A stretch of 39,331 bases of DNA. Origin: a virus. Below the pieces are notes generated by a model. That model worked only from the letters and a program-made list of their open reading frames with translations. It searched no databases and had not been told where the DNA came from. Of the stretch, positions 458 through 20,685 are shown in pieces. Every line of letters begins with the position of its first letter. The stretch's first letter is position 1. The stretch spans positions 1-39,331 of the IMG/VR virus record IMGVR_UViG_3300033143_006496; one strand, 5' to 3'. The position numbers and the translations under genes are program-made.

Positions 458-673
458 GGCCGCAATAAAACCACACTAACCGTTACAAAATGTATTTTGG
501 TCGATAATGTGCATGATGGCTTTTTTCTCTGGAATTATGAAGATAGCCCACCGTCAAAAATTAATTGGTTCCAAACATGTAACGACATTTTAGTTTGGCA
601 ATCTGAAAATGATTGGCCATTCATTCACAATTTTACCCCCTTGCTGGCCAAAGAACAAGGTTTAGCTCCTTAA
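455..673 (+). CDS. hypothetical protein
   Basis: A 72-residue, tryptophan-rich protein of unknown function. The ATG at 455 is chosen over the in-frame ATG at 413 because the ribosome site AAAGGA lies at 443-448, directly after a hairpin that the longer reading would have to translate. The same arrangement is used for the gene at 1035. It lies downstream of the 41-406 gene in the same transcript, and the stop is followed at once by the next tandem-repeat promoter. No transmembrane segment or known motif is visible. Confidence 0.65.
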   Translation: MGRNKTTLTVTKCILVDNVHDGFFLWNYEDSPPSKINWFQTCNDILVWQSENDWPFIHNFTPLLAKEQGLAP

Positions 674-723
674 TCTGGTCTTAATCTTGGCTTAATCTGA
701 GCTTAATGTTGGTTGGTTATAAT
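669..723 (+). promoter_or_regulatory. Pho-box-like promoter: four 11-bp CTTAAT repeats plus TATAAT
   Basis: CTTAAT begins at 669, 680, 691 and 702, an exact 11-bp period. Ten bases separate the last repeat from TATAAT at 718-723. No TTGACA-type -35 is present; the repeats occupy its place. This is the geometry of PhoB/OmpR-family activated promoters. It drives the gene at 760. Confidence 0.75.
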
Positions 724-759
724 ATCTATAATCAAATCAACCCAATCAAGGAGAAAACG

Positions 760-984
760 ATGACCGAAAAAACTTACAAGGCTCGAATGGAAAAAAGAGA
801 AGCATTGCTTCAATTGACCAACATTCAAGCACACGCCACTGAACTTACTTTTGTTCAAATTTTCGATTCGGTCGGCCCTCACCTCTACGGCAAATTTGAA
901 GCTAAAGAACGTAATATACTTCAACTTATTTTAGAGCTTGATTTGGCCAATCTTCGAAAACTGTTTGAAGTAATCGGTCTCTAA
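760..984 (+). CDS. hypothetical protein, helical
   Basis: A 74-residue protein, Lys/Glu/Leu-rich and predicted largely alpha-helical, with no recognised family. The ATG at 760 has a good AAGGAG site and lies about 30 bases after the promoter -10. The alternative upstream ATG at 706 would start inside the promoter and is rejected. It is followed by the second copy of the hairpin/RBS element and the gene at 1035, so the two are probably cotranscribed. Confidence 0.65.
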   Translation: MTEKTYKARMEKREALLQLTNIQAHATELTFVQIFDSVGPHLYGKFEAKERNILQLILELDLANLRKLFEVIGL

Positions 985-994
985 CCAATCAAAA

Positions 995-1037
995 TGCCCC
1001 GCTGGTGGCTTTGTAACCAGCAAAGGATTTTTCAATG
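995..1037 (+). promoter_or_regulatory. intercistronic hairpin plus RBS, copy 2
   Basis: The second copy of the element at 416-457 differs by one base in the loop (GGCTTTGTAACC against GGCCTTGTAACC) and by one or two bases in the RBS-to-start spacer. The stem GCTGGT/ACCAGC and AAAGGA are conserved. It sets the ATG at 1035. Confidence 0.6.
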
Positions 1038-1343
1038 GAATGGACCAAAGACCAGATCAAGACTAAGTTACAAAATGATGATGGCTGGGTAATCCGTGGA
1101 GTTATGGCAATCTTCAAGTATCAGACTTATGCAGAACAAAAAATTGAACATACCCAAGATTTGAACGGGGTTGGCTTCAATGGTCCCGACTCTTTCATTT
1201 TGACCTCGTTTGCAAAACAACTGAACCACAAGAAAAGCAAAAATCGCGCTTTGGCTTTGAGCCAGAAGCAAATGTACATTGCTCGCAAAAAGATTTTGAA
1301 ATATGCTGGTCAACTGGCCAAAATTGCCAATGGAAAAAACTGA
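1035..1343 (+). CDS. hypothetical phage/plasmid protein of a widespread small family
   Basis: A 102-residue basic protein. It resembles a family of small uncharacterised phage and plasmid proteins with the pattern of an aliphatic N-terminus, 'Y-Q-T-x-x-E-Q', 'N-G-V-G-F-N-G-x-D', 'S-F-A-x-Q' and a C-terminal 'A-R-K-x-(L/M)-K-Y-A-G-Q-L-A-x-I-A-N'. All of these are visible here (roughly residues 29-36, 44-52, 58-62, 83-100). The family has no established function that I can state. The start is fixed by the hairpin/RBS element. The gene ends before a two-codon minigene and a terminator. Confidence 0.7.
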   Translation: MEWTKDQIKTKLQNDDGWVIRGVMAIFKYQTYAEQKIEHTQDLNGVGFNGPDSFILTSFAKQLNHKKSKNRALALSQKQMYIARKKILKYAGQLAKIANGKN

Positions 1344-1357
1344 CAAAGGAGATAATT

Positions 1358-1366
1358 ATGTATTAG
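1358..1366 (+). other. possible two-codon minigene (ATG TAT TAG)
   Basis: A strong ribosome site (AAAGGAGAT, 1345-1353) is followed by ATG TAT TAG and then by a terminator hairpin. Two-codon minigenes that cause peptidyl-tRNA drop-off are known from phage lambda bar. Here it may equally be the stub of a lost gene. Confidence 0.35.
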
Positions 1367-1369
1367 TCT

Positions 1370-1418
1370 AAAAAGTATGTGCTTAGTGGGCGGGCTAGAA
1401 CCCCGCCCCTTACTTTTT
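1370..1418 (+). terminator. intrinsic terminator after the 760-1343 unit
   Basis: GGGCGGG (1388-1394) pairs with CCCGCCC (1402-1408). The flanking AAAAAGTA and TACTTTTT also match, so the hairpin may work in both directions. Confidence 0.75.
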
Positions 1419-1462
1419 AACCCTCGCCGCGACGCCACTAGTTAAAAAAAGTACTAATGAAC

Positions 1463-1506
1463 CTTAATGCCCGCTTAATCTTCTCTTAATCTTCATTTGA
1501 TATAAT
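1463..1506 (+). promoter_or_regulatory. Pho-box-like promoter: three 11-bp CTTAAT repeats plus TATAAT
   Basis: CTTAAT begins at 1463, 1474 and 1485. Ten bases separate the last from TATAAT at 1501-1506. An A-tract block at 1436-1462 upstream is shared with the promoter at 2070. It drives the gene at 1544. Confidence 0.75.
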
Positions 1507-1543
1507 ATCTATAATCAAAGCAGTATAAAAAAAGGAGAGCACA

Positions 1544-1954
1544 ATGACTTACCAAGACCGCATCAATGCAAAGCACCAGGCCTGGAAATTAAGCCTGGAC
1601 CGCGATGAGAATGTTCGCAAGGCTTTTAGCCTCATGCGGAAATTCGAACTAATTGCCCGCATGAACTTCTGGTGTTGTGGAACTTGCGCTTCCTACGCCA
1701 TGGGCACAAAAGTTGAGGAAGCCCTGGAAAAAGGGAAAGCTCCGGTTGGAGTTGCTTATTTCCACAACCAGGACAATAACCACAAGAAAGCTGGCCACAG
1801 CTTTCACATCGGTTATGGAGATTCTAGCATCAATGATTACAAAGGTCCCCTAACCACGGTTGAAGTTGGTGAATTGATTTGCCAAATATTTCTAAGCTGC
1901 GGAGTTCCTGTAAAATGGAACCAGGACCCTGCTCACAGAATCGAGGTTTTATGA
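1544..1954 (+). CDS. DUF6891-like hypothetical protein
   Basis: A 136-residue soluble protein with a clean AAAGGAGAG ribosome site. A Cys-Cys-x2-Cys motif near residue 44, a following 'F-H-(x)-Q-D' stretch around residue 74 and 'G-x-G-Y-G-D' near residue 89 resemble the pattern of the DUF6891 family of uncharacterised bacterial proteins. This is recognition by eye, not a search. It is a single-gene unit with its own repeat promoter and a terminator 20 bases after the stop. Function is unknown. Confidence 0.65.
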   Translation: MTYQDRINAKHQAWKLSLDRDENVRKAFSLMRKFELIARMNFWCCGTCASYAMGTKVEEALEKGKAPVGVAYFHNQDNNHKKAGHSFHIGYGDSSINDYKGPLTTVEVGELICQIFLSCGVPVKWNQDPAHRIEVL

Positions 1955-1973
1955 AATAAAACTGAGTCACCTC

Positions 1974-2003
1974 GGGAGCGCAGAACATCGCGCTCCCATT
2001 TTT
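1974..2003 (+). terminator. intrinsic terminator
   Basis: GGGAGCGC and GCGCTCCC form an 8-bp GC-rich stem with a short loop, followed by ATTTTTG. It ends the 1544-1954 unit. Confidence 0.8.
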
Positions 2004-2069
2004 GTGTATAACCATATATCACTTCCCCGGTTAACGCGCCACCGTTAGTTAAAAAAAGTACTAGTGGAC

Positions 2070-2113
2070 CTTAATCTTCTCTTAACCCTACCTTAATCTT
2101 CATGGGATATAAT
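2070..2113 (+). promoter_or_regulatory. Pho-box-like promoter: three 11-bp repeats plus TATAAT
   Basis: CTTAAT at 2070, CTTAAC at 2081 and CTTAAT at 2092 are followed by ten bases and TATAAT at 2108-2113. It drives the gene at 2151. Confidence 0.75.
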
Positions 2114-2150
2114 TTTTATAATCAAAGCAGTTTAAAAAAAGGAGTTGAAA

Positions 2151-2390
2151 ATGTTAGGTTATATGCTCAGCCCAGAGTTTTCTGGTCAGGTTCACAAAGA
2201 GGAATTTTTCCTCATGAGCCTTTTCCATTTGAACCAGAAAGATTTTGCTGACGAGGCCAAATTATATTTGGAACCCAGCTTCGTCGACGAAATGGTAACT
2301 GGCCAAATTCGAGGAGATGAATTCCTTTCCGCAGTAAACGAAGTTGCGGTTGGAAGAGCTGAAAAGCATTTTATTGTTCTCGAAGATTAG
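2151..2390 (+). CDS. hypothetical protein
   Basis: A 79-residue acidic protein of unknown family. The ATG at 2151 is chosen because it lies six bases after AAAGGAG; an in-frame TTG at 2145 overlaps the ribosome-site spacer. No membrane segment or metal motif is seen. It has its own promoter and a strong terminator, so it is a monocistronic unit like its neighbours. Such independently transcribed small genes are typical of phage host-takeover regions, but nothing in the sequence proves that role here. Confidence 0.65.
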   Translation: MLGYMLSPEFSGQVHKEEFFLMSLFHLNQKDFADEAKLYLEPSFVDEMVTGQIRGDEFLSAVNEVAVGRAEKHFIVLED

Positions 2391-2410
2391 ATTGGAGGTG
2401 ATAATTCTAG

Positions 2411-2437
2411 CCTCTCCAGAAATGGAGAGGTTTTTTT
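2411..2437 (+). terminator. intrinsic terminator
   Basis: CCTCTCC and GGAGAGG pair around a six-base loop and are followed by seven T residues. Confidence 0.9.
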
Positions 2438-2523
2438 GTTTAAGGTACCGCAGGCCCCCACTGCGAACTTTTGCTCGGCACCTATATAACCATAAGCATC
2501 ATCAGAATTGGGGGCACCCGGTC

Positions 2524-2578
2524 ATTAATCCAGTCTTAATCTTAGATTAATGTTCTCTTAATCTTCACAGTTTATAAT
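2524..2578 (+). promoter_or_regulatory. Pho-box-like promoter: four 11-bp repeats plus TATAAT
   Basis: ATTAAT, CTTAAT, ATTAAT and CTTAAT begin at 2524, 2535, 2546 and 2557. Ten bases separate the last from TATAAT at 2573-2578. It drives the genes at 2613 and 2713. Confidence 0.75.
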
Positions 2579-2612
2579 TATTATAGTAACCAAAATTCAA
2601 AAGGAGAAAAAT

Positions 2613-2729
2613 ATGAAATGTAAAATCTATTTGCAAATAATTTTTGAGGGGAAGGGAATTTGCCCAAATTGTCTAAATGAAAAAATCGAACAAATTAAAA
2701 TGGAGAATAAAAATGCCAAGACCCGATAA
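2613..2729 (+). CDS. small CxxC protein
   Basis: A 38-residue ORF with a strong AAAAGGAG ribosome site nine bases upstream. It carries one Cys-Pro-Asn-Cys pair near residues 17-20 and an additional Cys at residue 3, suggesting a minimal metal-binding or redox knuckle. It overlaps the next gene by 17 bases in a different frame, so the two are probably translationally coupled. Function is unknown. It is too short for family assignment. Confidence 0.5.
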   Translation: MKCKIYLQIIFEGKGICPNCLNEKIEQIKMENKNAKTR

Positions 2730-2973
2730 CATGTCACCCCTAGAATATGCAAATTCTGAAGATTGGATTTTAGACCGAGCTGAGGAAATTACCAGTTCTT
2801 TGGAACTTATGCACCGCCACGATAACAACAAATTTCAAAAAATAATTCGAGAGTGGTGGAGTTCAGAAAATATTTCCAGAAAAATGTTGGAAGTTGATGG
2901 ATGGATGGAATTACTCGAAGATACTGGTCGACTAATTGCTTACAAATATCACAAATTCGACAACTTCCAGTAA
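2713..2973 (+). CDS. hypothetical protein
   Basis: An 86-residue Trp- and charge-rich protein, probably helical. The ATG at 2713 is preceded by ATGGAGAATAAA, a plausible ribosome site. The longer in-frame reading from 2677 starts inside the upstream small gene without a ribosome site. No known motif is visible. It ends just upstream of a hairpin that overlaps the next promoter. Confidence 0.6.
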   Translation: MPRPDNMSPLEYANSEDWILDRAEEITSSLELMHRHDNNKFQKIIREWWSSENISRKMLEVDGWMELLEDTGRLIAYKYHKFDNFQ

Positions 2974-2982
2974 ATATTAAAA

Positions 2983-3015
2983 AGCCAGCATTAATCTAGT
3001 CTTAATGCTGGCTTA
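2983..3015 (+). terminator. hairpin shared by a possible terminator and the next promoter box
   Basis: AAGCCAGCATTAA and TTAATGCTGGCTT are perfect inverted repeats of 13 bases around a 7-base loop. The right arm also supplies one of the 11-bp repeats of the following promoter. It could terminate the 2613-2973 unit, but the T-run after it is weak. Confidence 0.45.
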
Positions 3016-3044
3016 ATCTTGCCTTAATGTTGGGGGTTTATAAT
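2990..3044 (+). promoter_or_regulatory. Pho-box-like promoter: four 11-bp repeats plus TATAAT
   Basis: ATTAAT at 2990 and CTTAAT at 3001, 3012 and 3023 are followed by ten bases and TATAAT at 3039-3044. No ORF follows, so it probably transcribes a non-coding RNA. Confidence 0.75.
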
Positions 3045-3050
3045 TACTAT

Positions 3051-3270
3051 AGATAACAAAACAACCACGACTTGTCGAGAAAGTTCAATGGGAGGAAGCG
3101 AACCAGCGACAATTTAAAGTCGATTTTTTAGGGGGCAAAGGCTCGCCCAGGCTGCATACTCATAGTACCTATAAGGTTATTAAGATTGGTGTCGCTGCGG
3201 TACATGCTGGTGTGCCGGAGACACAGCTTAGGTTCAGTTCTGGTAGCACCAAATACATGTGCGAGGGGGT
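3051..3270 (+). ncRNA. candidate structured non-coding RNA 1
   Basis: About 220 bases without a credible ORF lie between two strong promoters. Visible pairing includes CGAC/GTCG (around 3106-3123), GGGC/GCCC near 3132-3149, and an outer TTGGTG/CACCAA helix spanning roughly 3186-3251. CCAGCGACAA is shared with the second candidate RNA at 3385. No known RNA family was recognised, and the 3' end is uncertain because no T-rich terminator is seen. Confidence 0.4.
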
Positions 3271-3276
3271 CGGGCC

Positions 3277-3331
3277 CTTAATCTAGCCTTAATCTTCTCT
3301 TAACCTTCTCTTAATGTTCACGGGTTATAAT
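3277..3331 (+). promoter_or_regulatory. Pho-box-like promoter: four 11-bp repeats plus TATAAT
   Basis: CTTAAT, CTTAAT, CTTAAC and CTTAAT begin at 3277, 3288, 3299 and 3310. Ten bases then lead to TATAAT at 3326-3331. It transcribes the RNA at 3338-3464. Confidence 0.75.
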
Positions 3332-3337
3332 TTAAAT

Positions 3338-3464
3338 AATCAAAACTTGCCCTGGCCGAGGTGAACACGGAAGTCCGGCCGGCCCAGCGACAAAATCGGC
3401 AATTAAGTTGCGGGTGGGCGAGGGAAAGGGGGCGCCGGAAGTTCGACGTACGCCCGGCTTTTTT
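3338..3464 (+). ncRNA. candidate structured non-coding RNA 2 with terminator
   Basis: No ORF follows the promoter. CTTGCCC (3346-3352) can pair with GGGCGAG (3416-3422) to close a domain containing GGCCG/CGGCC (3354-3380), a CGA/TCG hairpin and a GCAA/TTGC hairpin. The terminator hairpin at 3434-3464 follows. Promoter, closed fold and terminator together give a compact transcript of about 125 nt. Its family is unknown to me. Confidence 0.5.
3434..3464 (+). terminator. intrinsic terminator of candidate RNA 2
   Basis: GCCGG and CCGGC pair (3434-3438 with 3454-3458) and are followed by six T residues. Confidence 0.65.
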
Positions 3465-3469
3465 GGGGG

Positions 3470-3929
3470 CGCCCGGATTTTTGTACGCTCGGCTTAACCG
3501 GGGGCTAAAGGGGCGTACGCCCTACGCCTGAGCGTAAAGTGCCTATGGCGTACGCCGAGCACAGGAACGTTGGGGATGAGTTTCGACACCGCATACTAAA
3601 CACATTATACTTATTGCGACGGCGAGAGCGTTGGCGACTCATTTTGCGAACGCGAAGCGCGACCAGCGTTGTCGCTACGAATGGGGGTTTGAGGCGTTTG
3701 GAGCTGGGGGACGCGGTACCTGAATGTGTATGTATATATGTTTCGACCCCGTTTGTGCACCTGCGATGCCATAAGTGACCTGAAACGCCTATTAGATGTC
3801 AATCCTGACTCGAAACGACGCCCAACTTGTACATGTAGGGGAGGCTATGTCATTCGTTGTCGTCACGAATTACGACAACATTGGCCTTTGAATCACATAC
3901 ATGATGACGGAAGTTATGGATGGGCCGTG
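3470..3929. other. GC-rich non-coding stretch with GGCGTACGCC palindromes
   Basis: No credible gene is seen. The open frames here are Arg/Cys-rich, lack ribosome sites and look like by-products of GC-rich DNA. The palindrome GGCGTACGCC occurs at about 3513 and 3547, with a partial CGTACGCCC near 3448. Composition differs from the AT-rich flanks, suggesting a structural or control region. Confidence 0.5.
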
Positions 3930-3992
3930 AAAAGTTTCCCCGGTACCGGTAAAAGTTACCCCGGTACCGGAACGAGTTGCCCCGGTACCGGT
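3930..3992 (+). repeat. three tandem 21-bp iteron-like repeats
   Basis: Three direct copies begin at 3930, 3951 and 3972. Each has an (A)AGTTN start and the palindromic core CCCCGGTACCGG. Spacing of two helical turns puts the cores on one face of the DNA, as for initiator or regulator binding sites. Confidence 0.8.
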
Positions 3993-4068
3993 TAAGTTAA
4001 AACCCAAAACGCCGGGATAGACGGCGTTCGGGTGCGAGACTACACTACAAATTTAATATAGGGTTACG

Positions 4069-4353
4069 CTACTTACTATCAAGGGATAGTGAGCGTGCCA
4101 ATTTGTACAGACCGGAAGCAGCGAGCCCGCCACCGAGTGCATAAATTATAATCTCGAAATATTGGGCAAAGCCTGGATTGATAAGAGCCACCTTTTGCCC
4201 GGCAAACATAAGCGCACCAAGCGTTACAGTAATCGCCGTAACTTTTGGTCCGTCCAGATTAAATACTTCTTTAATAAACTGTACCCATCCCATTACGAAT
4301 GGGATTATTAAGATACCAGCTACTGCTTGAGTTGTGAAGTCTGTAAGTTCCAT
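4069..4353 (-). CDS. holin-like small membrane protein
   Basis: A 94-residue protein with three hydrophobic segments (about residues 8-27, 36-55 and 62-83) and a short charged C-terminus ending near 'Leu-Ala-Arg-Ser-Leu'. The pattern, including a 'G-L-x-A-S-G-L-Y-K' stretch at the last segment, resembles small phage holins. Holins form membrane lesions that release the endolysin, and a GH25 endolysin is encoded on the same strand at 38329-39126. The ribosome site AAAGGAG lies nine bases before the ATG. It is the second gene of a short leftward unit, two bases after the stop of the 4356-4694 gene. Holin identity is inference from topology; a membrane protein of other function is possible. Confidence 0.6.
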   Translation of the reverse strand: MELTDFTTQAVAGILIIPFVMGWVQFIKEVFNLDGPKVTAITVTLGALMFAGQKVALINPGFAQYFEIIIYALGGGLAASGLYKLARSLSLDSK

Positions 4354-4355
4354 AG

Positions 4356-4694
4356 TTACTCTCCTTTAAGTTGGGGATGTGACCGGCGCCGGTTAAATTT
4401 TCCAGATGCGATTACGAACACGTCTCGAGTCAGTCCAAATGTACGATAGCGAAACTCGACCCCTAATCGCTTTGCGATGGGCTTAAGCTTTGCATCAAAT
4501 AGTTCAGAATTGCCATGAAGCTCGACGCACGCAATTTGCTCTTGCGGATATTTCTGCAAATAGTATACGACTGCTTCCTCGAAGCCCGCTAACATAACCT
4601 CTTCATATGATTGTCTACGAGTCGGTATGTCAACGTTCCACAACATGCCGTGCTCACCGTACTGACGCTTTGTTTGGGTCGCTAAATTAATCAT
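4356..4694 (-). CDS. hypothetical protein, probably leaderless
   Basis: A 112-residue soluble protein of unknown family. The ATG at 4694 is chosen rather than the upstream ATG at 4730: the reverse strand shows TACAAT (4706-4701) seven bases before this ATG, so the start codon would be about the transcription start. The longer reading would translate through the -10. It is the first gene of a leftward pair with the holin-like gene. Codon use is more GC-rich than in the rightward genes. Confidence 0.6.
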   Translation of the reverse strand: MINLATQTKRQYGEHGMLWNVDIPTRRQSYEEVMLAGFEEAVVYYLQKYPQEQIACVELHGNSELFDAKLKPIAKRLGVEFRYRTFGLTRDVFVIASGKFNRRRSHPQLKGE

Positions 4695-4700
4695 AAATAT

Positions 4701-4730
4701 ATTGTACCATACGTGGTCGAAAATGTACAA
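4701..4730 (-). promoter_or_regulatory. leftward promoter
   Basis: On the reverse strand, TTGTAC (4730-4725) and TACAAT (4706-4701) are 18 bases apart, a standard sigma-70-like layout, and lead directly into the ATG at 4694. It lacks the CTTAAT repeats used by the rightward promoters. Confidence 0.55.
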
Positions 4731-5644
4731 TGCTTGCTCTTAAAGTTGTCTAGACAACATGTGAGTGTTTGAGCTAAACGTTATCGTATGACAAATGTCA
4801 TAAATGTCATATGACAAGCTAACTCACTTAATCTAAAAAACATGATACAATGATACAGTTTACGACCAAGCATTGCGAGGCTCGCACTAAGCACTTTGAG
4901 GCAGCCGCCGTCGTCGCATCGGCCACCGTTTCAAATATACGAACATATCAAGACGATTACGTTTTAAGTAATAGAACGTATAAGCTAACAATATTGACTT
5001 GAACCTATATGTATATCGACTTGAACCTATATGTATATCGACTTGAACCTATATGTAATATGTAATATGTACGAGACTGCCATTTATAATTTGTGATTAA
5101 AAATGGCAGACGAGTTGATTGAATTCGATTAGTACTAAGGTTGGCAAGCTTTATGTCCCATTAGCCTTGATTTAAAAGCTTGCCGACCATGAATACGATG
5201 AGGACTTATTATGCCGGGAAACATGATATATTTTTCGAGCTTCAACTTCGACCTTGTTTTAAAGGTCGATTTTGAAGTGAGAACAATATTTCTTGTGACC
5301 GGCCATAATTTTGTCCGAAGAGTTAAAACGACCCCATTGGGGTCCTAAAATGCGTGTCCTGCTAGGTCTTGAACCTATATGCATATGTAATATGCATTGA
5401 TGCATAATGCAAATAGACTAAATATATGGATTTTTCTTAAGTGTTCGTTCCCCCCAACGTATCCCCAACTTTATCTTAAGGCGATTTCCTTAGTACTTAG
5501 TACTAGACTCGATACGATTCTTAAGACCTTTTTAATACTTATTTACTATTACTATTACTATTAGTACTAAGTACTTAAGTACTTAATACAGACGCCACTA
5601 TAGCGGCGGTTGACTTTAAGGGCTATGTACGAACTCCTTAAAGT
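4731..5644. other. 900-bp AT-rich intergenic region, candidate origin or control region
   Basis: No credible gene is present. It contains short palindromes (TTGTCTAGACAA near 4746; TATGACAAATGTCATA and TGTCATATGACA near 4791-4815), 22-bp tandem repeats at 4996, and inverted repeats GGCAAGCTTT/AAAGCTTGCC (about 5143-5184), TCGACCTT/AAGGTCGA (about 5247-5268) and GACCCC/GGGGTC (about 5330). AGTACTTA-type repeats cluster at 5490-5590. Dense repeats between divergent gene groups suggest a replication origin or a regulatory hub. Confidence 0.5.
4996..5060 (+). repeat. three tandem 22-bp repeats
   Basis: GACTTGAACCTATATGTA begins at 4996, 5018 and 5040, with TATATC completing the first two units. 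A fourth, diverged CTTGAACCTATATG occurs alone at 5368. Confidence 0.85.
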
Positions 5645-6244
5645 ATGATATTATTAAGAGTGATGAGTCTTAAAATGAACGATGAGTTGATTGAGCAAAT
5701 AGTAAGTGCATACATTGATGGAGAGTCATTGTCGGCAGTAGGTAAACGATTCGGGATTTCATATGGCACTGTCTATAACTATGTCAAAAGGCACAACGAT
5801 GGCATACATTTACGAAGGCGAACTAAGCCTGGTGCTAAGACTGGAAAGACGAGGAAGTTTCCTGAAATTTCATCAAGCTGGTATGACAACTTTATATATA
5901 AAGAAAGGTTTGAGTTTTTGAATAGCATTATATTAAAGATGATGAAGCGGGGAACAACGGGAATCGTTTATGATGCAGACCAATATATGGATTTTATCGA
6001 ATTCTTCTATTATAGACCTAAGTTTATGAGCATGTGGAATAATTGGGTCAGTAGTGGAAGAAATAAATGGTTGCGACCAGTATTGACACATAGAATTCAC
6101 AAAGGTGAAGGTGGTTTTGATACATTGCCTAACTTATATTTTGTGACTATGTTTGAGAAACGTTGTCAGGGTTCTATTGGTTTTGACGAGTGGAAATTAT
6201 TAAAATTTGTTATAAAGTCAAACATTTCAGATTATTTTAGTTAA
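5645..6244 (+). CDS. HTH-containing DNA-binding protein
   Basis: Up to 199 residues. Residues 14-50 form a resolvase/transposase-like helix-turn-helix ('I-x-x-A-Y-x-x-G-E-S-L-x-x-V-G-K-R-F-G-I-S-Y-G-T-V-Y-N-Y-V'), followed by a basic stretch (LRRRTKPGAKTGKTRK). The rest is aromatic-rich and not recognised. It lacks a visible catalytic motif, so a regulator or a homing-endonuclease-like protein with its DNA-binding part are both possible. Start codons at 5645, 5663 and 5675 are all in frame and none has a strong ribosome site, so the N-terminus is uncertain. It lies next to the repeat-rich region, which could contain its targets. Confidence 0.65.
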   Translation: MILLRVMSLKMNDELIEQIVSAYIDGESLSAVGKRFGISYGTVYNYVKRHNDGIHLRRRTKPGAKTGKTRKFPEISSSWYDNFIYKERFEFLNSIILKMMKRGTTGIVYDADQYMDFIEFFYYRPKFMSMWNNWVSSGRNKWLRPVLTHRIHKGEGGFDTLPNLYFVTMFEKRCQGSIGFDEWKLLKFVIKSNISDYFS

Positions 6245-14242: not shown

Positions 14243-14246
14243 GTAT

Positions 14247-14480: not shown

Positions 14481-14485
14481 CAAAT

Positions 14486-14529: not shown

Positions 14530-14535
14530 ATTTGT

Positions 14536-14754: not shown

Positions 14755-14817
14755 CTCAACGGATTGAGCACCTGCCTTCTAAGCAGATGGTTGTAGGTTC
14801 GAGTCCTGCCTTGGGTG
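14745..14817 (+). tRNA. tRNA-Arg(TCT)
   Basis: Acceptor GCCCAAG/CTTGGGT with G1-U72, anticodon loop CTTCTAA, T arm GTAGG/CCTGC. It overlaps the preceding CDS by ten bases. Confidence 0.9.
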
Positions 14818-14820
14818 CTT

Positions 14821-14894
14821 TGTTCCATAAACATATATGAAAATGAGATGAATCCGGATATAAGTTCATTAGTAACTATAGAGGTTGTGGAACA
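14821..14894 (+). repeat. spacer inverted repeat TGTTCCA/TGGAACA
   Basis: A 7-bp inverted repeat spans the spacer between two Arg tRNAs and encloses a smaller GATGAA/TTCATT hairpin. Confidence 0.55.
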
Positions 14895-14898
14895 TGAT

Positions 14899-14969
14899 GG
14901 GCTTGCGTGAACAGGAACACAACTGGCCTTCGAAGTCAGCTACTGCAGGTTCGAGTCCTGCCTGGCCCT
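14899..14969 (+). tRNA. tRNA-Arg(TCG)
   Basis: Acceptor GGGCTTG/CTGGCCC with one T-T mismatch, anticodon loop CTTCGAA, T arm GCAGG/CCTGC. Confidence 0.8.
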
Positions 14970-14983
14970 CTATGAATTGATAA

Positions 14984-15055
14984 CCACATGTCGCTTAATG
15001 GTAAAGCAGTGGACTTTTAATCCACCAGCTGGGGGTTCGATTCCCTCCATGTGGA
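14984..15055 (+). tRNA. tRNA-Lys(TTT)
   Basis: Perfect acceptor CCACATG/CATGTGG, anticodon loop CTTTTAA, T arm GGGGG/CCCTC. Confidence 0.9.
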
Positions 15056-15058
15056 CTT

Positions 15059-15187
15059 ATGGATATATGTAACGATTATGCCGAATGTGGTTGTGGCAGT
15101 GAAGATGAACATTGCATGTACTGCTTACGACCAAAAGACGAACATGAATTGGAAGATTGGCAGAGCGGTAATGCGTCGGCTTGCTAA
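15059..15187 (+). CDS. possible 42-residue Cys-rich microprotein between tRNAs
   Basis: The ORF opens four bases after tRNA-Lys and runs into tRNA-Ser(GCT). It encodes Cys at residue 4, C-G-C (11-13) and C-x2-C (19-22), followed by an acidic tail, which could form a small zinc knuckle. There is no ribosome site. 3' cleavage of tRNA-Lys would leave a near-leaderless message. It may be chance. Confidence 0.3.
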   Translation: MDICNDYAECGCGSEDEHCMYCLRPKDEHELEDWQSGNASAC

Positions 15188-15235
15188 GCCGTAGCCATCC
15201 AAAAGGATGCGATGGTTCGATTCCATCATCTTCCG
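15151..15235 (+). tRNA. tRNA-Ser(GCT)
   Basis: Class II tRNA. Perfect acceptor GGAAGAT/ATCTTCC, anticodon loop TTGCTAA, long variable arm CATCC/GGATG, discriminator G. Confidence 0.9.
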
Positions 15236-15366
15236 CCTTAGTAAGTTTGTTTTAGTTGCTGTAATATCATGGGAAATGGTTTGCATAAAAAATTAGCTTA
15301 CGAGTGGCACTGGAAAACCACTATAAATAAACCAGCGGCTCGCCAGTACCGATACAACTGGCACTT
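15236..15366 (+). other. tRNA spacer with nested hairpins
   Basis: No gene seen. AGTGG/CCACT (about 15303-15322) and TGGC/GCCA pairings are visible, in keeping with the other folded spacers. Confidence 0.4.
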
Positions 15367-15456
15367 GGGAAGTTGGCAGAGTCTGGTAATGCTTCGGCTT
15401 TGAATACCGATGACACGTTGAAAAAACGTGCGGGGGTTCGAATCCCTCACTTCCCG
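15367..15456 (+). tRNA. tRNA-Ser(TGA)
   Basis: Class II tRNA. Acceptor GGGAAGT/ACTTCCC, anticodon loop TTTGAAT with a C31-A39 mismatch, variable arm CACGTT/AACGTG, discriminator G. Confidence 0.85.
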
Positions 15457-15481
15457 CCTTGGCAAGTTCGCTTGCAGATAT

Positions 15482-15507
15482 AGATTTGGAGAAGTTGCCC
15501 CAAATCT
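15482..15507 (+). repeat. spacer hairpin AGATTTGG/CCAAATCT
   Basis: Perfect 8-bp inverted repeat followed by TTT. Confidence 0.65.
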
Positions 15508-15516
15508 TTTACTAAG

Positions 15517-15572
15517 CCGAGACAATGGCTATACTTGATGGATGGATAACCTTTGCTAGTACGTTGTCTCGG
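15517..15572 (+). repeat. spacer hairpin CCGAGACAA/TTGTCTCGG
   Basis: Perfect 9-bp inverted repeat enclosing 38 bases, directly before tRNA-Tyr. Confidence 0.7.
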
Positions 15573-15581
15573 TCGGCGTAT

Positions 15582-15651
15582 GGGTCTTTAGTATAATGGC
15601 ATTACGCTCGGCTGTAGACCGACAGATGGCGGTTCGAATCCCCAGGACCCA
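15582..15651 (+). tRNA. tRNA-Tyr(GTA) with short variable region
   Basis: Acceptor GGGTCTT/AGGACCC, anticodon loop CTGTAGA, T loop TTCGAA(T) with an imperfect stem. Bacterial tRNA-Tyr normally has a long variable arm; this one does not. Confidence 0.75.
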
Positions 15652-15654
15652 CAA

Positions 15655-15729
15655 GCAAATCTTTATCGTATAGCGGTGATTACGCCTCCGAAAGGGAAAG
15701 ATGTGTTCGACTCACATTAAAGATTTGCA
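15655..15729 (+). tRNA. tRNA-like gene with a shortened anticodon arm
   Basis: GCAAATCTTTA and TAAAGATTTGC form an 11-bp acceptor-like helix. A D arm and T arm ATGTG/CACAT with TTCGACT are intact. Only about 16 bases, CCTCCGAAAGGGAAAG, stand where the anticodon arm and variable loop should be. No normal anticodon can be assigned. Confidence 0.5.
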
Positions 15730-15730
15730 T

Positions 15731-15804
15731 GCCCGCATAGGCCAATTGGCAGAGTCACCAGCCTTAAGAGCTGGTCAGTACTGGTTCGAATCCAGTTGCG
15801 GGTA
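15731..15804 (+). tRNA. tRNA-Leu(TAA), short variable region
   Basis: Acceptor GCCCGCA/TGCGGGT, anticodon loop CTTAAGA, T arm ACTGG/CCAGT. The variable region is only five bases (TCAGT), unlike standard bacterial Leu tRNAs. Confidence 0.85.
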
Positions 15805-15914
15805 CACATCCTCAAGAGCCTCTGTGACTCATATTTATATGAAGGAACACATGCGCAAATGCTTGACCAGAGTACTGGTATCGCTCGGCTGACGAGTCGA
15901 GAATGAGGGAACTT
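15805..15914 (+). other. tRNA spacer with short hairpins
   Basis: CATATTTATATG, ACCAG/CTGGT (about 15868-15881) and CTCG/CGAG are visible. No gene is supported. Confidence 0.4.
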
Positions 15915-15988
15915 GCTCGCGTAGGCCAATTGGCAGAGTCACTTGTTTCAAACACAAGTCAGTGCTGGTTCGAATCCAGCCGTGAGCA
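15915..15988 (+). tRNA. tRNA-Leu(CAA), short variable region
   Basis: Acceptor GCTCGCG/CGTGAGC, anticodon loop TTCAAAC, T arm GCTGG/CCAGC, five-base variable region. Confidence 0.85.
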
Positions 15989-15994
15989 CTAAAT

Positions 15995-16068
15995 GTCCGT
16001 GTAGGCCAATTGGCAGAGTCGCTTGCCTTAGGAGCAAGATGTTGGTGGTTCGAATCCACTCGCGGACA
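15995..16068 (+). tRNA. tRNA-Leu(TAG), short variable region
   Basis: Acceptor GTCCGTG/CGCGGAC, anticodon loop CTTAGGA, T arm GGTGG/CCACT, five-base variable region. The D arm is almost identical in the three Leu tRNAs, so they derive from one another. Confidence 0.85.
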
Positions 16069-16144
16069 CTGAACATATAGCACATTTGTTCTATTTCAAA
16101 AGTACAAGAACTTGTTTTGGCCCGTTTCGAAAATGTTTTTTTAT

Positions 16145-16218
16145 CAGGGTGTAGTCAAGTCCGGTATGTCGCTCGGTTTGGGTCCGAGAAGTCGGGGGTT
16201 CAAATCCCTCCACCCTGA
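16145..16218 (+). tRNA. tRNA-Pro(TGG)
   Basis: Perfect acceptor CAGGGTG/CACCCTG, anticodon loop TTTGGGT, T arm GGGGG/CCCTC. Confidence 0.9.
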
Positions 16219-16220
16219 CT

Positions 16221-16294
16221 GTGACTGTAGCTCAAATGGTAGAGCGCCTAGCTGTGGACTAGGTATGGTGTGGGTTCGATTCCCATCAGTCACC
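16221..16294 (+). tRNA. tRNA-His(GTG)
   Basis: Perfect acceptor GTGACTG/CAGTCAC, anticodon loop CTGTGGA, discriminator C. The base before position 1 is T, so the G-1 normally encoded in bacterial His tRNA is not seen. Confidence 0.85.
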
Positions 16295-16315
16295 CTAATC
16301 ACAAAGGAGATATAA

Positions 16316-17467
16316 ATGAAGAGTGTTGTTACTACAGGAAAAATTCCAATAAAATTATGGCTTGATGATATTGAATGGGGCGCATTAGAACAAGCACGTA
16401 ACGTGGCCAACTTTCCTTTTGCTAAAAAATGGATTGCAATTATGCCAGATAGTCATCAAGGATATGGTATGCCAATTGGTGGTGTAATGGCTACTCAAGA
16501 TGTAATCGTTCCAAATGCGGTTGGTGTAGATATTGGCTGTGGAATGGCTGCTGTTAAACTAGATATAAAAGATGATGATTTGAAATATACAGCCATTTTA
16601 AAAACTATCTTGGGTGATATTAGAAAAGTTATTCCAATGGGGTTTAAGCATCAAAAAGAACCACAAAAATGGGATGGGTTTAATGAAGCTCCCGATGTTG
16701 AAATTATTCAAAGAGAATTAGCATCCGCAAAAAACCAATTGGGTACATTGGGTGGTGGCAATCACTTTATAGAAATTCAACATGGTGATGATGGACATTA
16801 TTGGTTTATGGTTCATTCTGGGTCTAGAAATGTTGGGCTTAAAACTGCTAAATATTACCATGATAAAGCAGTAAAATTATGCAAACGTTGGAAGTCTGAT
16901 ATCCCAAACAAAGACTTATCGTTTTTACCAATGGATGGTCTTGGAAAGGAATATCACATAGCTATGAAATGGTGTTTAGATTTTGCTTTAGCTAATCGTG
17001 AATTAATGTTAAAACGAATAAACGCGATAATAAAACATCATACGTTTGCTACACCCGTTTCTATTATAAATATTCACCACAACTATGCAGCTTTTGAACA
17101 TCATTATGGTAAAAATTATATTATTCATCGCAAAGGCGCAACTAAAGCAACCAAAGAAACTGTTGGAATTATTCCAGGTTCTATGGGAACAAACAGTTAT
17201 ATAGTACAAGGTCTTGGTAACCCCGAAAGTTTTATGTCGTGTTCGCATGGAGCAGGCCGTACTATGAGTCGTTCAAAGGCTAAGAAAGAGTTAAATTTAG
17301 AGCATGAACAAAAAATAATGGGTTCAGTTGTGCACGGATTACGAAATGTTGGAGATTTAGATGAAGCTCCTAGTTCGTATAAAGATATTGATGTTGTAAT
17401 GGAAAACCAAAAAGATTTAGTGAATGTGTTGGTAAAATTGACACCATTGGCATCAATAAAAAAATAA
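16316..17467 (+). CDS. rtcB: RtcB RNA ligase
   Basis: A 383-residue RNA-splicing ligase, close to normal family length. RtcB joins RNA ends with 2',3'-cyclic or 3'-phosphate to 5'-OH using Mn and GTP. Conserved motifs are all present: 'D-S-H-Q-G-Y-G-M-P-I-G-G' (45-56), 'G-V-D-I-G-C-G' with Mn-ligand Cys75, 'G-G-G-N-H' (146-150), 'H-S-G-S-R-N' (167-172), His254-His255, and 'S-H-G-A-G-R' with His311 as the guanylylated nucleophile. The start follows AAAGGAG. It lies within the tRNA array, 21 bases after tRNA-His and six before tRNA-Phe, which points to repair of cleaved tRNAs, for example after attack by host anticodon nucleases. A role in maturing the odd tRNA genes of this array is also possible. 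Confidence 0.95.
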   Translation: MKSVVTTGKIPIKLWLDDIEWGALEQARNVANFPFAKKWIAIMPDSHQGYGMPIGGVMATQDVIVPNAVGVDIGCGMAAVKLDIKDDDLKYTAILKTILGDIRKVIPMGFKHQKEPQKWDGFNEAPDVEIIQRELASAKNQLGTLGGGNHFIEIQHGDDGHYWFMVHSGSRNVGLKTAKYYHDKAVKLCKRWKSDIPNKDLSFLPMDGLGKEYHIAMKWCLDFALANRELMLKRINAIIKHHTFATPVSIINIHHNYAAFEHHYGKNYIIHRKGATKATKETVGIIPGSMGTNSYIVQGLGNPESFMSCSHGAGRTMSRSKAKKELNLEHEQKIMGSVVHGLRNVGDLDEAPSSYKDIDVVMENQKDLVNVLVKLTPLASIKK

Positions 17468-17473
17468 CAAATT

Positions 17474-17547
17474 GTGGACGTAGCTCAGTTTGGTAGAGCT
17501 TTCGGTTGAAGCCCGAAGAGTCGTTGGTTCAAATCCAACCGTTCACA
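17474..17547 (+). tRNA. tRNA-Phe(GAA)
   Basis: Acceptor GTGGACG/CGTTCAC, anticodon loop TTGAAGC, T arm GTTGG/CCAAC. Confidence 0.9.
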
Positions 17548-17554
17548 CCTTTAT

Positions 17555-17626
17555 GGCCCTATCGTCTATCGGCTAGGACATCAGGTTTTCAACCTGATAA
17601 GCTGGGTTCAATTCCCAGTAGGGTCA
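17555..17626 (+). tRNA. tRNA-Glu(TTC)
   Basis: Acceptor GGCCCTA/TAGGGTC, anticodon loop TTTTCAA, T arm CTGGG/CCCAG. Confidence 0.9.
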
Positions 17627-17636
17627 CTTGTAATAC

Positions 17637-17707
17637 GGGCTGTTGGTGAAATGGTATCACGCCGAGCTTTGGACTCGGAGTCGTCGGTTCGAAACCCACA
17701 CAGTCTG
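17637..17707 (+). tRNA. tRNA-Gln(TTG)
   Basis: Acceptor GGGCTGT/ACAGTCT with G1-U72, anticodon loop CTTTGGA, T arm GTCGG/CCCAC with one C-C mismatch, discriminator G. Confidence 0.85.
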
Positions 17708-17713
17708 CCTATA

Positions 17714-17784
17714 GGGTTCGTCGGTTAACGGCAAACCAGCGGACTCCAAACCCGCGACTGGAGGTTCGAATCCTCCCGAGCCCG
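17714..17784 (+). tRNA. tRNA-Trp(CCA)
   Basis: Acceptor GGGTTCG/CGAGCCC, anticodon loop CTCCAAA with an A31-C39 mismatch, T arm GGAGG/CCTCC, discriminator G. Confidence 0.85.
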
Positions 17785-17806
17785 CCTTAAACAAAATGGA
17801 GGTAAC

Positions 17807-18058
17807 ATGACTGTTGTTGGAGAAAAAGCAACATTTACGTTAGAGTTAGAAAATGGGGAAATATATACAATGCCCGTCATTACTGTCGAAATGTCACATC
17901 ATACTTCTATTGTTGGTGGCTTTGAAACTACAATAAAATGTGTTGGAACAGGTATGATTGAACGTTCGATATGTGAAGACAAAGCTACAAAATTGGAAAC
18001 GGCAATCGCAATAATTGAACAAGAAGAGTCAGAAGAATGTTATTTTGTATTTGTATAA
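17807..18058 (+). CDS. hypothetical protein
   Basis: An 83-residue acidic, beta-rich protein with no recognised family. A GGAGG ribosome site lies 6 bases before the ATG. It directly follows tRNA-Trp with no visible promoter, so it is probably read from the tRNA transcript and released by tRNA processing. Confidence 0.65.
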   Translation: MTVVGEKATFTLELENGEIYTMPVITVEMSHHTSIVGGFETTIKCVGTGMIERSICEDKATKLETAIAIIEQEESEECYFVFV

Positions 18059-18068
18059 GGAGTTTGTT

Positions 18069-18308
18069 ATGGCTGGAATGGGGATGCATTTAAAAGAAGC
18101 ATATTGTATTGGGGAAAAATGTAGTGTGTGTTCAAATGATGCAAGACATAAAATAGAAGAAGTTGTTCATGAGCAACCCAAGGGCTTTTTTAGAATGCGA
18201 CATCCATTAACAGCATATGTATGTTGTGATTGCTTTGGAGTTATATTTGGCAGTCTTGCTATAAAATGGTGTAGCAAAGCAAAAAAGAAAGCAAAGAAAA
18301 AAACTTAA
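18069..18308 (+). CDS. small zinc-finger protein
   Basis: A 79-residue protein with Cys11, Cys16 and Cys19 ('C-I-G-E-K-C-S-V-C'), His24, and 'Y-V-C-C-D-C' near residue 55. This spacing suits a treble-clef or zinc-ribbon fold. The C-terminus is a Lys run, suggesting nucleic-acid contact. The ATG at 18069 has AAGGAG upstream; a longer in-frame reading from 18015 lies inside the previous gene. It ends just before a repeat promoter. Confidence 0.65.
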   Translation: MAGMGMHLKEAYCIGEKCSVCSNDARHKIEEVVHEQPKGFFRMRHPLTAYVCCDCFGVIFGSLAIKWCSKAKKKAKKKT

Positions 18309-18358
18309 TCCTGTCTTAATGCTGCCTTAATGCTGCCTTAATGTTCATAGTATATAAT
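18304..18358 (+). promoter_or_regulatory. Pho-box-like promoter: four 11-bp CTTAAT repeats plus TATAAT
   Basis: CTTAAT begins at 18304, 18315, 18326 and 18337. Ten bases lead to TATAAT at 18353-18358. The first repeat overlaps the stop codon of the previous gene. Confidence 0.75.
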
Positions 18359-18391
18359 TTTTATATGCAAATGAAACACAAGGAGAGCAGC

Positions 18392-18865
18392 ATGTACAAT
18401 AATCCAACTAAATCCCAAATATTTACATGGTTCAACAAAGCTAAGGGTTGTGGGAAATTAGAAGCTGGTCGTGTAAATCGTGCGCTTGGGTATCTTCAAT
18501 CCAAATCTCTAAACGAAAAACTAAACAAATATAATACTTCCATTTATAAATGTAATTGCTACGATAACAATTTGTCTGGTTTTATTTGCAAACATCGCAT
18601 CTGCAAAATGATTATCAAACGCATTGACCAAGCCCACAAAACTAACGTCGCTTCTTTAATAGCAAGTACGACCAACGTCGTTCAACAATTCAACGCAAAA
18701 GTTGCGGTTGCAGAATATATTTCCAATGGTTATGTTATCCATTGGTTCAATGATGATTATGATGCTAAGCAATTTGTCAATACACGAGAGCCTGGAATTT
18801 TATGTGCACCTAAGTATGCTAAGGGCAATCGTGTTCGGCCAGATTACGACCATCGCACATATTAA
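18392..18865 (+). CDS. SWIM zinc-finger-like protein
   Basis: A 157-residue protein starting at 18392, three bases after AAGGAGAGC. An in-frame ATG at 18364 lies at the expected transcription start, so a leaderless 166-residue form is possible. Residues about 51-67 show 'C-x-C-x(n)-C-K-H', the pattern of SWIM zinc-binding domains found in DNA-binding and recombination-associated proteins. The remainder is unrecognised. It has its own promoter and is followed by another. Confidence 0.6.
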   Translation: MYNNPTKSQIFTWFNKAKGCGKLEAGRVNRALGYLQSKSLNEKLNKYNTSIYKCNCYDNNLSGFICKHRICKMIIKRIDQAHKTNVASLIASTTNVVQQFNAKVAVAEYISNGYVIHWFNDDYDAKQFVNTREPGILCAPKYAKGNRVRPDYDHRTY

Positions 18866-18904
18866 TCTGGCCTTAATGCTGCCTTAATGTTCATAGGTTA
18901 CAAT
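18861..18904 (+). promoter_or_regulatory. Pho-box-like promoter: three 11-bp repeats plus TACAAT
   Basis: ATTAAT at 18861 (overlapping the previous stop codon) and CTTAAT at 18872 and 18883 are followed by ten bases and TACAAT at 18899-18904. Confidence 0.75.
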
Positions 18905-18947
18905 TCAATTAAGTAAAAATCAAAGCACATTACAAAAGGAGAAAAAT

Positions 18948-19022
18948 ATGTACGAAGCATTTTGGACAGTTTTAGCAATTTTATTGCTAATCAAATTTCA
19001 CCCCAAGTACAAAGGAGAATAA
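18948..19022 (+). CDS. 24-residue single-pass membrane peptide
   Basis: A strong AAAAGGAG site precedes the ATG. The peptide is a single hydrophobic helix (residues 5-16) with a basic end. Its last codons form the ribosome site of the next gene. It is the first gene behind a strong promoter, so expression is likely. Function is unknown. Confidence 0.5.
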   Translation: MYEAFWTVLAILLLIKFHPKYKGE

Positions 19023-19024
19023 GT

Positions 19025-19276
19025 ATGGAACCAAAACAAGTTTATGAACATCTTATAGAAGTTACTGAAAAGCAAGTGGAAGGTTATATCAATGACCCAA
19101 ACTTGGACGAAGGTACAAAAGTAGGAATTTTCAACATTCATCTCAAACACGAAAGTCGAAAGTTTGTACGTAAGCTGCAAGAAATGGTGGATAATACTAC
19201 TGAACAACGGCAGCTGGAATTGGCAGAGTCTATGGAAGCTGAAGGAGACAGTGACCAAAGATTAAGAAATGATTAA
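19025..19276 (+). CDS. hypothetical protein, helical and acidic
   Basis: An 83-residue protein with high Glu/Gln/Lys content, predicted largely coiled or helical. The ATG at 19025 lies two bases after the preceding stop and eight after AAAGGAG. No family was recognised. It is cotranscribed with the 24-residue membrane peptide, and the next promoter begins over its end. Confidence 0.65.
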   Translation: MEPKQVYEHLIEVTEKQVEGYINDPNLDEGTKVGIFNIHLKHESRKFVRKLQEMVDNTTEQRQLELAESMEAEGDSDQRLRND

Positions 19277-19309
19277 GAAGCGAAAATGCAACGCTTTTTA
19301 GGTTATAAT
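19261..19309 (+). promoter_or_regulatory. possible promoter with paired ATTAAG boxes
   Basis: ATTAAG at 19261 and 19272 (11 bp apart) and TATAAT at 19304-19309 have the same spacing as 6252/6263/6295. It would drive the AAA+ gene at 19330. Confidence 0.4.
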
Positions 19310-19329
19310 TGAAACAGGAGAGAGCAACC

Positions 19330-20625
19330 ATGAACTATACGCACCAAACAGCACTAATGAGAATTCAAACAAATGTAAACTTTGCTGAGCTAATTGTAGC
19401 TTCACCAATGATGCTTGTAAACCCAACATTCAAGCGTGTTGAATTCTTGAGCATGAAAACCGGAACACTGTTTGTAGCACGTTTCAAGACAAATGGAACA
19501 CGTCGGCAATTTGTTCGTATCATAAAGGTTCTTGACCAAACTGAATACAAAGCATCTGTTGCAAGTTTTATCAATGAATACAGAGGAACAATGGTTATTG
19601 AAGCTGAACGAACCCTTAGTTCTATAAAACGTAATATAAGCCGATTGAGCGGCGCATCTCTTGAACATTCAAAATTTGGCAAACGTTTGTCATCTTACGT
19701 GTCTGATATTACGGATTTTAAAGATGTGTTGAACAAAAAAGAAAGCGAAAGTGATGAAAGCTTAATATTGTCTGGCAACCCTAAAACTTCTATTAAAGAA
19801 GAGGAAGAGCCAATCGCAAAGGAATATGCATCTGGATGGATAAATGGTGTGTTTTTTGAAGGCTCGATTAAAATGGCTTTTGAAACAGCTGTTGAATTAA
19901 CAAAAAATGATTTGCCAGTAAACATCTTGATGACGGGGCCTTCTGGATACGGGAAAACTTCATTGCCATTAGCTTTTGCAAAATTGCACGATATGGTTCC
20001 ATTCAGAATGAATTGCCCAATCGTACGCGATAGCGAGGAATTCTTTGGTTATCGTGAAGCTCGAGCTGGTGACACAGTTTTTATCAAGTCCGAATTCACT
20101 AATATTATTGAAACTGGAAATGCAATAGTTGTATTAGATGAATTGAACCGCCTCGAGTCTTGGTTGCACAACTTACTGTTCCCTTTATTAGATGACGACC
20201 GCAAAACAACTGTTCACGGTGAAAAGATTGTTGTTGGTCCAAACGTTGTGTTTGTTGCTACCATCAACGAAGGCTTTCAATATACTGGAACTTTTGAGAT
20301 GGACCAAGCATTACGCAACCGAATGGATATGACTATTCACGTTGGTGCTATGCCACCAGCAAAAGAAACAAAGTTACTTATGCATCGTATTGGAATGGAA
20401 AAACCAACAGCTATAAAGATTGTAAAGATTATGCGTGAAATTCGCAAATTGGTTGATGCTGGTGAAATTGATATCGATGCTTCCACCCGAACAACAATTA
20501 AGTTTGGCAAATTAGTTAAAGGTGGTATGAATTTTGCAAATGCAGTCAAGTTTACAATTACAAATGGTCTTGATAATAGCCAAGGCAAACAAGTATCTGA
20601 TAAAATTGGTAAGTTCCTAATGTAA
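19330..20625 (+). CDS. MoxR/CobS-like AAA+ ATPase
   Basis: A 431-residue ATPase. Residues 1-165 are a variable N-terminal domain. The AAA+ core shows Walker A 'G-P-S-G-Y-G-K-T' (203-210), Walker B 'V-V-L-D-E' (267-271), sensor-1 'A-T-I-N-E-G' (310-315) and an arginine finger 'R-N-R-M-D' (329-333). MoxR and CobS-type ATPases remodel VWA-domain partners and metal-chelatase complexes. The next gene encodes exactly such a VWA partner. Cyanophages and other large phages carry CobS-like genes of unclear function. The start at 19330 follows AGGAGAG; an in-frame ATG at 19309 lies inside the -10. Confidence 0.9.
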   Translation: MNYTHQTALMRIQTNVNFAELIVASPMMLVNPTFKRVEFLSMKTGTLFVARFKTNGTRRQFVRIIKVLDQTEYKASVASFINEYRGTMVIEAERTLSSIKRNISRLSGASLEHSKFGKRLSSYVSDITDFKDVLNKKESESDESLILSGNPKTSIKEEEEPIAKEYASGWINGVFFEGSIKMAFETAVELTKNDLPVNILMTGPSGYGKTSLPLAFAKLHDMVPFRMNCPIVRDSEEFFGYREARAGDTVFIKSEFTNIIETGNAIVVLDELNRLESWLHNLLFPLLDDDRKTTVHGEKIVVGPNVVFVATINEGFQYTGTFEMDQALRNRMDMTIHVGAMPPAKETKLLMHRIGMEKPTAIKIVKIMREIRKLVDAGEIDIDASTRTTIKFGKLVKGGMNFANAVKFTITNGLDNSQGKQVSDKIGKFLM

Positions 20626-20641
20626 TAGAGATTAGGCCAGC

Positions 20642-20685
20642 CTTAATGCTGGCTTAATCCTCTCTTAATGTTGGTAGAGTATAAT
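20642..20685 (+). promoter_or_regulatory. Pho-box-like promoter: three 11-bp CTTAAT repeats plus TATAAT
   Basis: CTTAAT begins at 20642, 20653 and 20664, with a degenerate ATTAGG at 20631. Ten bases lead to TATAAT at 20680-20685. GCCAGC/GCTGGC also forms a hairpin across the first boxes. The ATG at 20692 is at the expected transcription start. Confidence 0.75.

Follow-up and report, generated by a model that had tools for sequence, protein, structure and literature searches.

The stretch of DNA analysed here (henceforth the window) is the IMG/VR virus record IMGVR_UViG_3300033143_006496, a fragment of a tailed phage that is 39,331 bases long and has a GC content of 37.6%. Its + strand carries eleven promoters in which CTTAAT-type boxes repeat every 11 bp upstream of a -10 element, and behind these arrays lie small open reading frames (ORFs), RNAs, tRNAs, CobS/CobT-like genes and replication genes. 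Among the proteins encoded in the window are RtcB, an AAA ATPase of the CobS/CbbQ type and a VWA protein that is weakly CobT-like; others are a PolIII-type DNA polymerase, a DnaB-like helicase, a primase-like protein, a thymidylate synthase, a dCMP deaminase, a GH25 lysozyme and a metallophosphoesterase. A megablast search of the left 24 kb of the window against 50,697 phage records gave no near match, and searches with its proteins returned remote phage matches only (DNA polymerase ~30%, RtcB ~42%, helicase <28%). No relative was found in IMG/VR with the DNA polymerase and CobT-like proteins as queries, and profile searches with the Band-7 and nuclease proteins recovered the already known relative and nothing further.

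Geometry and composition of the promoter arrays

When pairs of TTAA(T/C) on the + strand of the window are sorted by distance, 29 pairs lie 11 bp apart, 19 lie 22 bp apart and 6 lie 33 bp apart, and every other distance between 6 and 39 bp is represented by at most one pair. At ten of the eleven promoters the boxes keep the 11-bp period and the final box ends exactly 10 bp upstream of the -10 element; by strict count, five of these ten have three boxes and five have four, and the -10 is TATAAT at nine and TACAAT at one. A sequence-only reading made before this analysis had placed the starts of all eleven arrays correctly to the base. Its estimate of three to five copies stands as three or four at every site, five being never reached in the window (arrays of six and seven boxes occur in the related phage record IMGVR_UViG_3300033143_006887, henceforth G001), and the exact 10-bp ending that it gave for all eleven sites is true of all except the array at 12419. 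This array (12419-12484) has four boxes (12419, 12430, 12441 and 12452) and its TACAAT (12479-12484) lies 21 (10+11) bp beyond the last intact box, in register. The in-register slot closest to the -10 reads AATCTA and looks decayed, because G001 has an intact ATTAAT in the counterpart slot, followed by TATAAT after 10 bp. The same reading had named beforehand random occurrence of the motif as evidence that would count against it; no array of two boxes, N10 and TANAAT appeared in 100 order-1 Markov or 200 order-3 Markov shuffles of the window, and the exact pattern CTTAAT-N5-CTTAAT-N5-CTTAAT-N10-TATAAT occurs six times in the 39-kb window itself.

At the left edge a twelfth promoter is truncated: the window begins inside its -10 (TATAAT, 1-6, with its boxes outside the window), TATAATTACTATAATC at 1-16 matches the -10/start region of the other promoters, and the G001 orthologue of the gene behind it has a full box promoter at that place. 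The first complete promoter (669-723) has boxes at 669, 680, 691 and 702 and TATAAT at 718-723, and the TAA of its first box doubles as the stop codon (at 673) of ORF 413-673. Three-box promoters follow at 1463-1506 (boxes at 1463, 1474 and 1485; TATAAT at 1501-1506), ahead of ORF 1544-1954 (DUF6891) and a terminator-like hairpin at 1974-1997, and at 2070-2113 (boxes at 2070, 2081 and 2092; TATAAT at 2108-2113), ahead of ORF 2151-2390 and a terminator-like hairpin at 2409-2432. The segment 1384-2432 (+) is made up of successive cassettes of promoter, small gene and terminator-like hairpin, and the sequence GTTAAAAAAAGTACTA, which recurs in L021, a third relative of these phages, precedes the boxes at both 1463 and 2070. 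Four boxes each are found at 2524-2578 (2524, 2535, 2546 and 2557; TATAAT at 2573-2578), which precedes small ORFs, at 2990-3044 (2990, 3001, 3012 and 3023; TATAAT at 3039-3044), whose transcript holds no clear ORF, and at 3277-3331 (3277, 3288, 3299 and 3310; TATAAT at 3326-3331), whose transcript is GC-rich and likewise holds no clear ORF. Behind the promoter at 12419 come an RNA region and then a tRNA cluster, and the promoter at 14486-14529 (14486, 14497 and 14508; TATAAT at 14524-14529) stands inside that cluster, ahead of an ORF beginning MNAKKDW. Overlap of the first box with a stop codon is seen again at 18304-18358 (18304, 18315, 18326 and 18337; TATAAT at 18353-18358), where ORF 18015-18308 ends at 18308, and at 18861-18904 (18861, 18872 and 18883; TACAAT at 18899-18904), where ORF 18341-18865 ends at 18865. 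The last promoter (20642-20685; boxes at 20642, 20653 and 20664; TATAAT at 20680-20685) precedes the CobT/VWA-like gene and then the replication and nucleotide genes. An AGGAG site lies 21-32 nt downstream of the -10 in most units other than those at 14486 and 20642, which instead have an ATG 6 nt downstream of the -10 (listed at 14530 and 20692, + strand); since the ATG is so close, the mRNAs of these two units are likely to be leaderless.

TTAA is invariant in the boxes and C occupies position 1 in 31 of the 35. In the spacers, position 7 is always C or G (C 17, G 8), position 8 is T (15) or C (10) and position 10 is mostly C or G. Spacer identity is 0.48 within one array versus 0.45 between arrays in the window, and 0.48 versus 0.44 in G001; because spacers are no more alike within arrays and TTAA does not vary, the boxes look like the product of selective maintenance rather than of recent duplication. 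A phased A/T promoter signal has been described for Campylobacter, and the repeats might be a mere signal of that kind for the housekeeping sigma factor, or UP elements for the alpha subunit of RNA polymerase. Helical phasing and a missing -35 hexamer would fit such a signal, as would the A/T-rich surroundings of the arrays in three AT-rich phages described below (G002-G004). We nevertheless consider it very unlikely, as the hexamers are near-invariant and not A/T tracts, with their C at position 1, and the 10-bp distance is fixed; the C/G-rich spacer positions, too, argue against simple A/T-tract or UP-element periodicity.

Occurrence of the arrays in other phages and in bacteria

G001 shares most of the left part of the window, with protein identities of 28-83%, and has 12 arrays, all of them on its rightward arm and 11 of them with four to seven boxes by strict count. 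Its leftward arm (1 to ~23,000), which encodes portal, head protease, major head and tail proteins, has no array. The terminase and portal proteins of L021 are 84-85% identical to those of G001, and its one array lies at the same divergent junction of terminase and box promoter as in G001. Arrays are also found in a 193.7-kb phage record that is apparently unrelated (G002; L103-L112), which has 28 of them, the majority with two TTTAAT boxes, at the same 10-bp distance to an extended -10 (TGNTATAAT, with the TG extension); in a gapped search of this record the 10-bp distance dominated, with a few sites at 11. Two further records, G003 and G004, carry several arrays. A reversed control pattern gave 0 or 1 matches in these phages, and an off-by-one control (the TTTAAT variant with a 9-bp gap) gave two stretches in IMG/VR, none of them from the 194-kb phage. 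A final motif scan added one more contig, L128, which is chance-like. In another phage contig, of 48% GC (L020, from G005), two CTTAAT-box promoters stand divergently back to back at 5144-5737; this contig has no detectable similarity to the window.

The perfect three-box pattern is rare in cells: the 257-Gb GTDB r220 collection holds eight stretches, three of them in metagenome-assembled genomes (MAGs) of Planctomycetaceae and two in Legionella-group genomes. In the Planctomycetaceae MAGs, arrays of three to six boxes lie upstream of pstC-pstA-pstB-phoU (L029) and of a pstC-like gene (L091), and others precede GDPD (L075), a metallophosphoesterase (L076, array partly degenerate) and other proteins (L081, L086). 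Planctomycetota were considered as a host clade and found unsupported, the two-box CTTAAT pattern being present in just 2 of 199 genomes (three occurrences in ~0.9 Gb). In the two Legionella-group genomes the two-box form, with at most one mismatch, is enriched (53 versus 7 and 34 versus 4 for the reversed control) and has the same 10-bp spacing to the -10 (TATAAT). These boxes are likely read by PmrA, given their sequence and the fact that PmrA is a global regulator throughout the genus Legionella (PMC6989116). As far as sequence can tell, two or more unrelated groups of bacteria use the array layout for regulators of the OmpR/PhoB family, and the signals differ between them.

Candidate activators of the rightward arm

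The arrays have the hallmarks of sites for OmpR/PhoB-family activators, namely head-to-tail repeats with a period of 11 bp (one helical turn) and, at 10 of the 11 sites, a last repeat about 10 bp before a sigma-70 -10 that lacks a -35 hexamer. The sequence-only reading had noted no TTGACA box, and in our consensus scan of bases 1-5000 no TTGACA-type promoter coincided with the -10 elements of the arrays. Boxes of E. coli PhoB consist of 8-bp repeats joined by a 3-bp linker and are separated from the downstream -10 by 10 bp; sites of the cyanobacterial SphR have at least three repeats of the CTTAACCT type; and the Synechocystis pstS2 box, CTTAATTCtatCTTAATTTcgaCTTAATCA, holds three CTTAAT repeats (PMC1906773). 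The window arrays share with these the 11-bp direct repeats and, with E. coli, the 10-bp distance, and most window boxes match positions 1-6 of the Pho-box form (C/T)TTAA(C/T)(C/T)(T/A)-N3, with positions 7-8 matching in part. They differ in being closer to consensus than the cellular boxes, and in preceding small genes, RNAs, tRNAs and replication genes where the E. coli and cyanobacterial boxes stand ahead of phosphate genes. Since E. coli, cyanobacterial and PmrA boxes all match the array, and the cellular counterparts share its layout, an activator of the OmpR/PhoB family is well supported, and we think it quite probable that the arrays are its sites, which would make them activator-dependent sigma-70 promoters.

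In bacteria this layout serves PhoB, PmrA and similar activators of stress responses, and for this reason we propose that the virus probably borrows an activator of its host to switch on the genes of the rightward arm. The host protein, an OmpR/PhoB-family response regulator, would bind head to tail, with one winged-helix domain per 11-bp CTTAATN5 unit on the same face of the DNA, and three or four repeats would leave room for up to two dimers. PhoB contacts region 4 of sigma; by analogy, we infer that the subunit bound nearest the -10, at the final repeat 10 bp away from it, could touch sigma region 4 and so replace the missing -35 contact. The rightward arm, with its small modular genes, non-coding RNAs, tRNA cluster, CobS/CobT-like genes and replication genes, would in this way be coupled to an active host regulator, with the structural genes served by other promoters.

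Which member of the family might be involved is suggested less firmly by the boxes. The half-sites read by PmrA are of the CTTAAT type and are separated by 5 bp (CTTAAT-N5-(N)TTAAT; PMC3973317), and hexamers of this type and spacing are present in every window array. The motif is therefore equally a PmrA box, and of the earlier proposal of a PhoB/OmpR-family regulator the family remains the best reading, given the geometry and the pst-phoU counterparts, while the motif does not by itself identify the boxes as 'Pho'. A host regulator of the PmrA/BasR/QseB type, responding to metals or envelope stress and not to phosphate, would account for this half-site pair and for the 10-bp distance in the two Legionella-group genomes; we find it rather doubtful, as PmrA sites comprise two half-sites whereas the window has three or four boxes and G001 up to seven, numbers like those in the Pho promoters of cyanobacteria and Planctomycetes. 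SphR/PhoB targets typically have at least three boxes, which makes a phosphate regulator resembling PhoB our leading candidate, although a tentative one, and specificity for phosphate is only suggested.

An activator encoded by the phage itself has also to be weighed. In T4 middle promoters a MotA box is combined with TATAAT, the activator box taking the place of the -35, and the window promoters resemble these in having a -10 with an activator box instead of a -35; the MotA box, however, is single, differs in sequence and forms no 11-bp repeat array. An activator of another fold, working like MotA, could bind the repeats and replace the -35 contact here, and the arrays would then mark a class of early or middle promoters that does not depend on the physiology of the host. 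Arrays limited to one arm, and far nearer consensus than in almost any cellular genome, are what such a private regulon predicts; many ORFs in both phages belong to no known family, and a conserved protein with a helix-turn-helix (HTH) is present (5645-6244; 41% identical in G001). That protein is set apart from the OmpR-type winged helix by its best Pfam matches, the homeodomain-like HTH_28/HTH_23. Moreover, the Trans_reg_C domain (PF00486) was found in none of 11 phage records and the receiver domain (PF00072) in none of six, the window and the relatives searched included, as the claim that the window holds no regulator gene had anticipated. As the repeat, its period and its distance to the -10 also coincide with those of known bacterial OmpR/PhoB sites, and an apparently unrelated 194-kb phage has the identical geometry, we judge a phage-encoded activator unlikely.

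Several observations weigh against a borrowed host regulator of the OmpR/PhoB family, or against its link to phosphate. No genome in GTDB r220 has the perfect three-box array more than once and, the eight stretches all being single, no host with consensus-grade arrays is in sight; the phage records searched for PF00486 and PF00072 hold no response regulator gene. Genes for phosphate uptake or scavenging were not found behind the arrays, and the sole phosphoesterase of the window (35989-37194) lies on the opposite strand without boxes. Work on cyanophages, finally, shows that predicted Pho boxes in phages are unreliable: host PhoB binds cyanophage promoters, and only some of the predicted boxes are functional (PMC10976474).

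The cyanophages P-SSM2 and S-PM2d provide a close likeness to what we propose here from sequence, in that they exploit an OmpR/PhoB-family regulator of their host (PMC10976474). They have a few degenerate boxes near some genes, whereas in the window essentially all promoters of one arm carry strict multi-box arrays. Cyanophages are already known to use host Pho boxes, and it is the near-universal use of such boxes on one arm that looks new. More tentatively still, a lineage of phages may have used consensus-grade arrays to bring one whole genome arm under the control of one stress regulator of the host, infection may be gated by the nutrient or stress state of the host, and unrelated phages may have reached the same design. 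Early and middle promoters of phages are usually strong host-like ones or are served by phage factors. If the proposal is true, a host signal-transduction regulator would act as master switch of one phage arm and tie phage development to host physiology, and the arrays would offer a sequence signature for recognising such phages in metagenomes. They are also near-perfect natural test sites for the effect of 11-bp repeat number on activation by the OmpR/PhoB family.

RNA genes and repeats near the arrays

The tRNA cluster (12981-17786, +) comprises 26 tRNA genes that nearly cover all amino acids and has the RtcB RNA ligase gene within it, an arrangement that suggests repair or replacement of cleaved host tRNAs. 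Ahead of it, a non-coding segment behind the 12419 promoter (12802-12982, +) shares 85% identity with L013:10587-10769, much more than the flanking sequence does, and probably forms a structured RNA. At 13066-13191 (+) lies a tmRNA-like RNA of 126 nt, both ends of which match RF00023 (41.3 bits, E 6.7e-15, below the 47-bit gathering score); its mRNA-like part appears to be missing, since 54 nt stand in place of ~300 positions of the model. The ORF-less transcripts at 3105 and 3386 (+), and those at 25966, 30022 and 30288 in G001, share CC(A/T)GCGACAA or CTGCGACAA, often followed by TTTAA. An Rfam search of 2950-4100, which covers the window copies of these transcripts, returned no family, and the ORF-less transcripts behind box promoters are possibly a small RNA family. 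Close by, at 3935-3995, three copies of the repeat CCCCGGTACCGG stand close together and might mark an origin or a protein-binding site.

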